This document shows positions 17,159 to 19,836 of a stretch of DNA of 64,000 nt, piece by piece. A model generated the notes under the pieces. That model was not told where the DNA came from and ran no database searches. It saw only the letters and a program-made list of their open reading frames with translations. This stretch comes from Selenomonas sputigena ATCC 35185. Its GTDB lineage: Bacteria > Bacillota > Negativicutes > Selenomonadales > Selenomonadaceae. The DNA lies in NCBI RefSeq assembly GCF_000208405.1, contig NC_015437.1, forward strand, positions 1,357,501-1,421,500, read 5' to 3'. Position numbers and translations under genes: made by a program. The stretch's first letter is position 1; each line of letters starts with the position of its first letter.

Positions 17159-18397
17159 CTATTCAACATAGTGGCTGAAACTGCCGATGACGAGTTGCGG
17201 AAACTCCCTCTTGAGCCGTTCCAAAAACTCTCTAGCGCCGACCGCCTCGCCCTGCGCTTCGGGCATAATTTCAAGGAAGGCGTCGGGATCGACATTGAGG
17301 TTGCGCACCTGCACCATGTTGACGGGCAATTCGCAAAAGAAGCCGCGCCACGCTTCGAGTTCTTCGGCGCGGTCATTAAAGCCCGGGAAGAAGAGCATAT
17401 TGAGCGACACATATACGCCGTGCGAAAGCGCGTAGCGGATCGACTCCTTGACGTCGGCGAGCGTGTAATTGCTGCGGTAGTACGCCGCATAGCTCTCCTC
17501 GATGGCGCTGATGATGCTCACACGCATGGAGTCAAGACCGGCATCGACGATCTTTCGGATGCCCTCAGTATAGCCGGCATTCGTGTTGATGTTGATCTGC
17601 CCGCGCTTCGTCTCAGCGCGAATCAGGCGCTCGGCTGCCGCAATCGCATCCGCCGCAAGCGATGGCTCGCCCTCGCAGCCCTGTCCGAAGCTCACGATGG
17701 CGTCGGGCGCAGTCGAAAGGTGGTAGATGCCGACCTGCGCGATCTCCTCGGGCGTCGGGCGGAACGCGATGCGGCTCTGCGGCGAAGGACAGCACTCGGC
17801 GGGCTGCAGGGAGATGCAGCCGAAGCAGTTCGCGTTGCAGACAGGCGACGTCGGTATGCCCGCTTCCCAGCGACGGTAAAAGAGATTCTGCGCCGTGCAG
17901 CAGTGCCACTTCAAGGAGCAGCCCGCCACCTGCTCGACGATGCGGTTGCCCGGCAGATCCTTCTCGACGCGGCGCACGAGTTTCTTGAGCTCTCGCGTGT
18001 TGTAGTATACGGGATCCCACTTCGTATTCTCATCCGTATAGAGAGCCGCCGCATAGAGATCATCCTTATAGAGCACGACAGCCGTATAACCGTAGAGAGC
18101 GAGCCTTTCAGCCCCTTCCTCTCGCTGAAAGGCAGGAAGAAAGAGTCTCGTGTAGCCTGCAGGCAGGATGGCGGCGACGGCGCGTCCCGCCAGAGGCAGC
18201 ATTTCGCCAGTCGCCGTCATTCCCATCGCCGCGCGATCGGGCAGGAACATCAAGTCCGCCGACTCGGGCAGCGGAATGAGATCGGCAGGAGTAAGCGGCA
18301 AGAGCGTATTGCCCGAGCGCCCCAGTCCCGCGATGCCCGGCGCATCGAAGATCGCCCCATCCTCATCGGCGTAAAGCGCACGTATTTCCGCCTTCAT
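17159..18397 (-). CDS. Radical SAM protein of unknown function
   Basis: A 412-residue protein whose CxxxCxxC motif (CNANCFGC, near residues 185-192) lies in the middle, behind a roughly 180-residue N-terminal region. Just before the motif is a second cysteine group, GCSLKWHCC, which could hold another Fe-S cluster. GQGCEGEP replaces the usual GGEP-like segment, and NINTNAGY and VSLNMLFFPGFND follow as in other radical SAM folds. ATG at 18397 sits behind AGGAGGG and overlaps the pth stop as ATGA, so the two are translationally coupled. Substrate is unknown. It precedes the riboswitch promoter by about 45 bp and need not belong to the tetrapyrrole operon. Confidence 0.8.
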   Translation of the reverse strand: MKAEIRALYADEDGAIFDAPGIAGLGRSGNTLLPLTPADLIPLPESADLMFLPDRAAMGMTATGEMLPLAGRAVAAILPAGYTRLFLPAFQREEGAERLALYGYTAVVLYKDDLYAAALYTDENTKWDPVYYNTRELKKLVRRVEKDLPGNRIVEQVAGCSLKWHCCTAQNLFYRRWEAGIPTSPVCNANCFGCISLQPAECCPSPQSRIAFRPTPEEIAQVGIYHLSTAPDAIVSFGQGCEGEPSLAADAIAAAERLIRAETKRGQININTNAGYTEGIRKIVDAGLDSMRVSIISAIEESYAAYYRSNYTLADVKESIRYALSHGVYVSLNMLFFPGFNDRAEELEAWRGFFCELPVNMVQVRNLNVDPDAFLEIMPEAQGEAVGAREFLERLKREFPQLVIGSFSHYVE

Positions 18398-19050
18398 GCT
18401 TCGCCCTCCTGCCTCTCGGCCTGCGGTACAGCGCTGCTTTTCTCCGCGCTTTCCCTCTCCTGCGCTTCCTGCTTTGCCGCCTTCTTCCTGCGCGGGTTGT
18501 AGCGGTTCATCGCCATGTCGATGCCATCCGTCACGATGCACTCGACGGCGGGCAATAAATAAGAAATCGCCTCTTGAATCTTCGGCGCGTCGTCTGCGGG
18601 AAACGGCGCAAGCACATGCTTGACGACCGTCCAACCGGGCAAGGGTCGCCCGATGCCAATGCGCACGCGCGAGAAGTCCTCCGAACCGATGTGCGCGAGA
18701 AGCGACTTGATGCCGTTATGACCGCCCGCGCTTCCCTTGCGCCGCAGACGAATCGTGCCCGCTGCGATGTCCATGTCGTCGTGCGCGACGATCAAATCCT
18801 CAGGAGCGAGCTTGTACCAATCGAGCAGAGGGCCTACCGCGCGTCCGCTCTCATTCATATAGGTCAAAGGCTTGACGAGCAGCACCTTCTGTGCGCCGAT
18901 GCGCCCTTCGGCTGTAAGCGCGTTGAACTTCTCACGCCAAGCATCGACACCAAGTCTTTCAGCCAAGGCGTCGACAAGCATAAATCCGACATTGTGCTTC
19001 GTACGTGCATACTCCGCCCCAGGATTTCCGAGGCCGGCAATGATCTTCAT
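18394..19050 (-). CDS. pth: Peptidyl-tRNA hydrolase
   Basis: Pth releases tRNA from peptidyl-tRNAs that fall off the ribosome. The start IIAGLGNPG with N9, the catalytic-histidine segment TKHNVGF (H19), the KPLTYMNESG motif and HDDMDI are all present. The protein is 218 residues, about 30 longer than usual, because of a charged Lys/Glu/Gln-rich tail after the NRYNPRRK end of the core. The start codon is separated from its consensus promoter by an inserted MITE-like element, giving an unusually long leader. A radical SAM gene overlaps its 3' end by 4 bp. Confidence 0.95.
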   Translation of the reverse strand: MKIIAGLGNPGAEYARTKHNVGFMLVDALAERLGVDAWREKFNALTAEGRIGAQKVLLVKPLTYMNESGRAVGPLLDWYKLAPEDLIVAHDDMDIAAGTIRLRRKGSAGGHNGIKSLLAHIGSEDFSRVRIGIGRPLPGWTVVKHVLAPFPADDAPKIQEAISYLLPAVECIVTDGIDMAMNRYNPRRKKAAKQEAQERESAEKSSAVPQAERQEGEA

Positions 19051-19070
19051 CGTATTCCTCCGAATGTTTC

Positions 19071-19239
19071 TAAAGGAATCGCTGATAAAATGAAGTTGCC
19101 CAGATTTGCACAGATACGCTGTTCCTGTCTAGGAGACAAACCGCAGGCGTAGCAGTGGCTACGTCGAGGATTTGTCGACGACGAGAGGACAGTGTAGATG
19201 TGTGAAGATGGGTAGCTGAATTTATCAGTGCTTCCTTAA
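19071..19239. repeat. MITE-like inverted-repeat element, long form
   Basis: About 169 bp with imperfect terminal inverted repeats: TAAAGGAATCGCTGATAAA at one end and TTTATCAGTGCTTCCTTA at the other. Pairing continues inward for roughly 30 bp. No ORF for a transposase is inside. A shorter relative with the same ends lies at 19343-19414. It sits between the pth promoter and the pth start, so it is part of the pth leader RNA and would fold into a long hairpin. Confidence 0.7.
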
Positions 19240-19277
19240 ACCTCGCCGCAAAACGCTGCGGCAAGTCTGCTACCACG

Positions 19278-19306
19278 ATTCTACCGTATGAAATGCGCCT
19301 TGTCAA
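19278..19306 (-). promoter_or_regulatory. Promoter for pth
   Basis: TTGACA (19301-19306) and TAGAAT (19278-19283) are separated by exactly 17 bp on the minus strand. The distance to the pth start is about 230 bp, explained by the repeat element inserted between them. Confidence 0.75.
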
Positions 19307-19314
19307 AACAACCT

Positions 19315-19343
19315 TTGCGCACGAGGAAAAAAGCGGGTAGAAT
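19315..19343 (+). promoter_or_regulatory. Promoter for the C_GCAxxG_C_C gene
   Basis: TTGCGC (19315-19320) and TAGAAT (19338-19343) are separated by 17 bp. The short repeat element begins at the end of the -10 box, so the transcript would start inside the element. Confidence 0.55.
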
Positions 19344-19414
19344 AAAGGAAGCGCTGATAAATAAGGTCGCGCAGATGTGTGAAGATGGGCGGCTGAATTT
19401 ATCAGTGATTCCTA
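19343..19414. repeat. MITE-like inverted-repeat element, short form
   Basis: About 72 bp that share both ends and the internal segment GATGTGTGAAGATGGG with the element at 19071-19239, but lack its central part. The sequence TAGAA occurs on both flanks and may be a target-site duplication. It lies in the leader of the plus-strand gene at 19441. Confidence 0.65.
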
Positions 19415-19440
19415 TAGAAAATGCAAGGAGGAAAATCATC

Positions 19441-19836
19441 ATGAATCATCATCTAGAAGAAGCAAAACTTCTACGACAGGAGCCGGGCGGCCGTCACTAC
19501 AACTGTGCGCAGTCGCTCCTCGTGCCCTTTGTTGCCGAAATCGGCATGGAAAAAGAAGAAGCCGACGCTCTCGGCGCGTTCTTCGGCGCGGGCATGATGC
19601 ACGGATCCGCCTGCGGCACGCTGACCGCCGCGCTGATGATCCTCGGCAAAGCGGGCAAGGATAAGGAAACGGCGAAGAAGCTTGTTGACGACTTCCTCGC
19701 CGCCCACGGCACGACGGACTGCCGATGTCTTCTCGCCGCCGCAGAAGAAAAAGGCATTGCACGCAAAGAAAACTGTGACGGACTTGTTTTTGACATGTGC
19801 CAAAAGCTTGCGGCACTTCTGACTGAAACAAAGTGA
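19441..19836 (+). CDS. C_GCAxxG_C_C family redox-type protein
   Basis: A 131-residue protein with the family's spaced cysteines: NCAQS, GSACGTL, DCRC and NCDG...MC. The family is widespread in anaerobes and thought to hold a redox or metal centre; the reaction is not established. ATG at 19441 follows a perfect AGGAGG. It is the first plus-strand gene after the repeat-rich divergent region, with mutY 54 bp downstream. No signal peptide or membrane segment is visible, so it should be cytoplasmic. Confidence 0.82.
   Translation: MNHHLEEAKLLRQEPGGRHYNCAQSLLVPFVAEIGMEKEEADALGAFFGAGMMHGSACGTLTAALMILGKAGKDKETAKKLVDDFLAAHGTTDCRCLLAAAEEKGIARKENCDGLVFDMCQKLAALLTETK

Follow-up and report, generated by a model that had tools for sequence, protein, structure and literature searches.

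Within the window, a 64,000-nucleotide stretch of the Selenomonas sputigena ATCC 35185 genome (NC_015437.1, positions 1,357,501 to 1,421,500), the gene for peptidyl-tRNA hydrolase (pth; 18394..19050, minus strand; PF01195) and the gene for a putative redox protein of the C_GCAxxG_C_C family (19441..19836, plus strand; PF09719) are separated by a spacer that holds two related elements. Two elements with common tips had been predicted here, and both were found where they had been placed, with lengths refined from 169 to 161 bp and from 72 to 66 bp. The medium element runs tip to tip over 19075..19235 and is assigned to the plus strand, the orientation in which G-U pairs strengthen its fold; its tips match exactly (GGAATCGCTGATAAA on the left, 19075..19089, plus strand; GGAAGCACTGATAAA on the right as read on the minus strand, 19221..19235). 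The short element occupies 19347..19412 on the plus strand, and the two are 93% identical over their right 41 nt and 95% identical over their left 19 nt. The only four exact tip matches in the window are the tips of these two elements, and a single tip with up to 3 mismatches matched 13 times (shuffle mean 4.85, maximum 9). A paired-tip pattern, which fits the short element only, gave 2 matches representing the two strands of one site and 0 in 100 shuffles. Imperfect 4-bp duplications border the medium element (TAAA at 19071..19074, where the sister species G001 reads TTTCTAAACAC, and TTAA at 19236-19239), and the duplication around the short element is also imperfect (TAAA at 19343-19346; TATA at 19413-19416).

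Each element is one hairpin, folding almost end to end. On the plus strand, the medium hairpin (19073-19237) reached -89.2 kcal/mol (z = -11.8) and the short one (19343-19412) -32.0 (z = -8.0), while the minus strand folded more weakly (-54.7, z = -5.9, and -17.3, z = -4.7, respectively). These values bear out the predicted hairpins; their proposed placement in 5′ UTRs is based on promoter-like matches. The sole match of a promoter scan was a predicted site for pth, TTGACA-17-TAGAAT (19306-19278, minus strand; 1 match found, 0.6 expected by chance), which is present in the sister species too (L130), and the medium element lies between this predicted promoter and pth, as proposed. The short element had been described as starting at the -10 box of the opposite gene; it begins 3 nt after a possible -10 hexamer, TAGAAT (19338..19343, plus strand), which was read by eye, is absent from the promoter-scan list and stands at the same site in the sister species (L130). 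From these promoter-like sites, shared with the sister species, we infer that the two elements probably add RNA hairpins to the leaders of both genes: one would lie inside the pth leader, the other at the very start of the redox-gene mRNA or close to it.

We used blastn to search the host genome (G000; 2,568,361 bases, one contig) with each element, obtaining 54 matching pieces each at E ≤ 10; 40 of 60 and 40 of 64 candidates were scored after the first look, and the copy counts are lower bounds. The 2.57-Mb genome holds at least 38 near-complete copies, namely at least 19 medium, at least 5 long and at least 14 short. Identity to the 161-bp element was 87-100% in at least 16 medium copies and 74-78% in at least 3; those other than the window's own (at least 18) range from 98 to 74%. 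The short near-full-length copies are 75 to 100% identical to the 66-bp element, and the long ones comprise four of 279-281 bp and one of 519 bp. With up to 2 mismatches allowed, the tip was found 150 times in the genome and the reversed pattern 10 times. The count shows that the repeats are dispersed in the genome and not confined to this locus. Many copies lie close to gene ends. Their orientation was 12 with and 7 against transcription in the 19 tandem contexts among 34 copies (codon-based gene calls), which is no clear bias relative to host transcription.

The copies fall into size classes of about 27, 66, 161, 280 and 520 bp. Among the loci examined, there were eight minimal hairpins of 27 bp, barely more than two tips, of which one is flanked by CTAG left and right; lengths of 40, 44 and 77 bp were each seen once. 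Read from the sequences, the 66-bp form is the 161-bp form minus its inner part, joined at an AGAT found on each arm; the junction of the 77-bp form is at the next AGAT and that of the 27-bp form at CTGA. AGAT opposite AGAT makes the stem's tandem G-A mismatch, and the mismatch sites are therefore also direct repeats, at which slippage would shorten the hairpin while keeping its register. The junctions suggest that slippage between short sequences repeated on the two arms (AGAT, CTGA) gave rise to the shorter classes, and that shortened forms whose tips survived could spread again. The arm junction at AGAT thus fits the original prediction of the short form as a deletion derivative, but descent from the 161-bp neighbour is not required, since the 66-bp form is an old amplified class with at least 14 near-full-length copies. 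The long class carries a 120-nt module with its own hairpins, once in four copies and three times in the 519-bp copy. In this last element (L021:1086-1604; G000:C1:323420-323938), the three tandem 120-nt modules have a C(UUCG)G loop. A diverged module at 175.1-175.3 kb shows a paired change in the loop stem, from GUCC/GGAC to GCCC/GGGC, a comparison of two sequences only. At G000:C1:175091-175821 (L024/L025), a fragment of the left end and a nearly complete medium copy, oppositely oriented, enclose other palindromic repeats (a CCGCAAGCGGTATGAGGTCACATGTGAC unit, twice) and lie near the only IS1182-type transposase.

To count target duplications, L116, L214, L176, L182, L189 and L193 were left out and the remainder was split into 62 GGAA-tipped and 20 GGGCG-tipped elements; a first count, with duplicates included and both tip kinds pooled, had given 33 of 84 exact at 4 bp. 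The flanks matched exactly over 4 bp in 31 of the 62 GGAA-tipped elements, from seven genomes, compared to 6.5% in a control in which left and right flanks were taken from different elements, and over 5 bp in 0 of 62. The commonest duplicated 4-mers were TTAA, CTAA, TTTA, TTAG and TGAA. The sister genome, whose Pth is 96% identical and in which pth, the redox gene and mutY stand in the same order, holds neither element at this locus. The medium-element site, which is GTTTCTAAA followed by the element and TTAAACC when filled, reads GTTTCTAAACACTCG when empty in G001; the empty site of the short element aligns less cleanly. These sites were read from the sequences directly; pairwise MAFFT misplaced the gap. 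None of the 14 G001 copies compared sits where a G000 copy sits. Either both elements entered the spacer once the two species had diverged, or both were lost from the sister species.

Together, these results support the original reading of the elements as miniature inverted-repeat transposable elements (MITEs): many dispersed copies, 4-bp target duplications, an empty locus in the sister species, and IS5-family relatives with the same tips, described below. At 161 and 66 bp, with 15-bp terminal inverted repeats and without a transposase gene, the two elements have the build of MITEs, and dispersal, target-site duplication and filled and empty sites were all observed, the duplications being imperfect at both window copies. 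The alternative raised at the outset was a conserved RNA structure at identical positions in distant species. The gene pth is present in 41 of 41 genomes, and we examined 30 pth loci, including the window's own; paired tips at up to 2 mismatches occurred in 0 of the 29 others, and a conserved cis-regulator of pth was rejected. A conserved RNA structure is moreover no alternative to mobility, as the family shows both mobility and a conserved structure.

No IS5-type transposase was found in the host genome by searches with the DDE_Tnp_1 profile and with the protein P0001, and the mobiliser is therefore deduced from relatives. The sole DDE_Tnp_1 match in the genome (176709-177467) was rejected as a mobiliser: it is an IS1182-type transposase with no tips flanking the gene, and the only GGAA-type tips in its 3.8-kb locus are those of the neighbouring medium copy L024. 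In relatives, paired tips GGAA-N-C-R-CTGAT(A/T)AA stand 1.2-1.3 kb apart around an IS5-type gene at eight loci (L225, L226, L228, L229, L230, L231, L233 and L244), with exactly matching 4-bp flanks at three of them (L225, L231 and L233) and stops in the reading frames of L231, L233 and L244. P0001 (L100, the same site as L225), an intact protein of 333 aa, scores 318 bits with NF033581 (IS5 family), whose cut-off is 140. Of the 151 genomes of the family, 19 have matches to P0001, and at E ≤ 1e-20 G000 and G001 have 0 each. The core of the element was present in 16 of the 19 P0001-positive genomes and in 59 of the 132 others (Fisher p = 0.0013, uncorrected for relatedness). The core model gave no match at E ≤ 0.01 in nine insertion-sequence loci with matching tips (L113 included), so the MITE is not a simple internal deletion of these insertion sequences. 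Thus, regarding the mobilising transposase that the original prediction proposed to find, same-tip IS5-family elements exist in related genera and none was found in this genome. The two window copies appear to have been moved as non-autonomous elements by an IS5-family transposase, which would act on GGAA-N-C-R-CTGATAAA tips and 4-bp targets, often YTAR.

A degenerate IS5-type insertion-sequence relic at G020:C1 ~1829.7-1831.1 kb (L116, L245) itself holds a medium element, with TTCA on both sides. The same core was also seen with other tips, GGGCGTGTTGATTAA or a variant differing at one base, in 19 elements of genus g3 (from G003 and G032) and in L195 (G028). TA flanks these copies on both sides in 20 of 20 and, being invariant, could belong to the element itself. 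In G032, the remnant of an insertion sequence (L113) has GGGCGTGTT ends, and its protein matches another IS5 model, NF033580, at 139 bits (cut-off 110). These sequences indicate that in genus g3 one core carries the tips of another IS5 group.

To follow the core by itself, we built a covariance model (R1) with the tips excluded, whose E-values are rough. R1 matched 75 of 151 genomes of the family, in 20 of 30 genera. In a sample of 300 genomes from the class (Negativicutes), it matched 67, and 23 of them lie outside the family, in seven other families; f6, f23 and f34 are each represented by a single weak match (E 1.8e-6 to 8.4e-6). Separate searches of twelve of the 23 yielded 260 copies (86 in G176, 45 in G045, 24 in G248, down to 1 in G313); 12 reverse-strand matches were left out of the class-wide core rows. 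Among the elements inspected from outside the family, GGAA-like tips were seen in f10, f15 and some of f11, and none in the f4 elements (L289, L291, L299). In family f4, G317 has two cores, one of them beside a T-box leader match (L289:943-1137; 77.8 bits, below the gathering score of 93) that lies ~360 nt from the core. Rfam covariance models had no match at E ≤ 1 in 18900-19600 of the window, and in 12 loci gave 4 matches at E ≤ 0.1, none overlapping an element. Carriage by plasmids or phages was rejected: a 165-bp query found no match in the collection of either. A 15-base pattern occurred in 16 viral contigs, of which one, L329, had a core match at E ≤ 0.01. The L329 contig (IMG/VR) ends inside that match (1-65, 47.7 bits). 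A full-length core (L159; JAFTCE010000076.1, 2130-2264; 148.6 bits) lies in a goat rumen contig binned as Desulfovibrio, likely a misbinning.

We then asked how far the fold of the core is conserved. In an alignment of 40 distinct cores (A1; 9 genomes, no more than 95.5% alike, tips removed), 96.0% of the 1511 cells at 38 base pairs were paired, compared to 82.8% in shuffles and 33-47% (maximum 47.3%) with slid partners. Double-sided changes that keep the pair were found at 25 of the 38 base pairs, and the covariation score was 0.450 against 0.202. For a larger set, 89 elements were extracted, nine were dropped (L116 and L214 as duplicates; L176, L182, L024, L189, L193, L199 and L223 for being long, incomplete or odd) and an identical row was merged, which left 79; the matches L215-L218 were too short. 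On a FastTree phylogeny of these 79 elements, we counted 63, 59 or 52 double-sided Watson-Crick changes, depending on the pair set, and 3-5 in four slid controls. Compensatory change thus exceeds the controls in both the alignment and the tree, as expected of a structured RNA; pairing itself is kept, in many genera, and the core is not filler. The stem has a further constant feature. The two positions of the main tandem G-A mismatch are kept in 79 of 79 and 78 of 79 elements, and those of two further tandem sites in 69 and 71, and in 73 and 53, of the 79 rows; the main site is missing in some cores from other families of the class. In the consensus register, the longest uninterrupted helix is 8-14 bp in all 79 elements.

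Breaks of pairing were distributed 15:62 and 27:88 between internal and terminal branches, and pooling the slid controls gave 111:158 (p = 4e-4 and 1e-3); this depletion on internal branches was non-significant against the +2 slide alone (p = 0.26 and 0.50). A plain comparison of double changes and breaks by branch gave p = 6e-9 and 2.5e-8 (Fisher), which is partly a branch effect because the slid controls, which also place their few double changes on internal branches, lean the same way (p = 0.054, 0.024, 0.003 and 0.64). These results give moderate support to the view that resident copies decay after insertion and that spreading lineages keep the fold. The strand is less clearly marked. The consensus fold is much stronger on the plus than on the minus strand (-70.6 versus -22.5), and G-T is the commonest state at 7 positions and A-C at none, a count biased by a register taken from the plus fold. 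The ratio of G-U to A-C was 461:51 on plus-fold pairs, 241:70, 78:40, 54:29 and 46:29 with other pair choices, and 62:183, the opposite skew, on the pairs of the minus-strand fold. Counted in a strand-neutral way on the tree, it was 28:11 on internal and 43:36 on terminal branches (slid controls, 27:11 and 20:6). We therefore rejected this skew as a proof of RNA, as it depends on the pair choice, is similar in the slid controls and reverses on the minus fold; with so weak a preference, RNA rather than single-stranded DNA is not proven.

The explanation that we favour, and consider probable, is that these elements are MITEs moved by IS5-family enzymes whose core hairpin is conserved by compensatory change and whose fold would ease insertion into transcribed spacers. 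One strand forms a long hairpin broken by conserved tandem G-A mismatches, and selection seems to act mainly on the lineages that go on spreading. RNase III prefers longer regular helices; a stem broken into helices of no more than 14 bp would be a poor substrate, and a folded transcript would keep the RNA added to a UTR compact and so make insertions into transcribed spacers tolerable. The function suggested for the hairpin is thus tolerance of insertion, through compact, RNase III-resistant RNA. A bolder version, to which we give less than even weight, makes the hairpin the sole cargo of a mobile RNA fold: its structure would be selected in the spreading lineage across the class, its 8-bp tips would be exchangeable among IS5 groups, and it would serve the element itself, by insertion tolerance or in mobilisation.

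Paired changes could also accumulate without selection on the fold, by template switching between the arms (quasi-palindrome mutation) in an ordinary MITE. The elements are long inverted repeats, their size ladder suggests slippage between arm repeats, and template switching would yield double-sided changes in a single step. However, mismatches should be lost under such a mechanism, whereas one tandem G-A pair persists almost without exception; the prevalence of G-T over A-C, with the bias in register noted above, also speaks against it, and it does not predict the moderately supported scarcity of breaks on internal branches. We consider this explanation unlikely. The copies could instead be RNA regulators or mRNA stabilisers recruited by the host and kept in place for its benefit, which we hold to be less likely still. 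Many copies do lie near gene ends, and in three locus pairs, each drawn from two genomes of a single genus in another family, the sequences to the left and right of the core correspond, which indicates that some copies stay at one site between species. In the L291/L299 pair, the element is better preserved (157/165 identical) than its flanks (273/315 and 271/300). In contrast, the element of L287/L298 differs about as much as its flanks do (150/165; 266/301 and 268/300), that of L295/L312 is 126/171 identical against 203/300 and 275/300 in the flanks, the sister species shares none of the compared sites with G000, and breaks accumulate on terminal branches. Least probable of all is that the hairpin acts as single-stranded DNA, for example by aiding transposition or replication, since, for all that G-T pairs and tandem G-A mismatches are tolerated in DNA hairpins too and that no clear orientation bias relative to genes was seen, DDE enzymes of the IS5 family are taken to act on double-stranded ends and the enzyme's own elements, to judge by the nine coreless insertion-sequence loci, do without the core.

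Conservation of the core hairpin in IS5-moved MITEs, the reading preferred here, can be set beside known repeats. Bacterial MITEs are usually regarded as a pair of tips around mere filler. Like the present elements, REP/BIME palindromes and Correia (NEMIS) elements, compared here by their general description, are short hairpins that recur many times between genes, frequently in transcribed spacers, but REPs are not known to have a DDE-type target duplication and are associated with Y1 enzymes. The tips and 4-bp target duplications of the present elements match those of IS5-family insertion sequences of relatives, as in other IS5-family MITEs; the differences are that the core was not found in nine such loci and that its structure is conserved. 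The nearest described case is bcr1 of the Bacillus cereus group, a MITE-like intergenic repeat of 147-167 bp, often in UTRs (PMC3446304), with a common secondary structure predicted for the family (PMC2267715). It belongs to another host group, the likeness is one of description and not of sequence, and the available text of those papers does not mention a mobilising insertion sequence, tip exchange or a size ladder. The BrickBuilt MITE of Porphyromonas gingivalis, as far as the available text describes it, has an internal tandem repeat like the long class here (one to three modules), but with a unit of 23 nt instead of 120 nt and in strains of one species (PMC4596501). Negativicutes are mentioned in two surveys of structured RNAs, whose available portions describe other motifs (PMC8632094, PMC6429828). 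We found no description of this core or family in the open-licence PubMed Central literature, including papers on MITEs and repeats of Selenomonas and Veillonella.

The kind of element, a MITE, is therefore already known, and the conserved fold of its filler is the new part of the finding. For S. sputigena, the two insertions provide a natural comparison of filled and empty sites for two leaders, one of them upstream of pth. For the family as a whole, hundreds of copies in many genera record how the filler has mutated in nature while its fold was conserved, and if the hairpin is indeed a mobile RNA fold, it would be a selfish non-coding RNA within a DNA transposon. With this record, it can be tested whether a lineage of transposons can be subject to selection on RNA structure.
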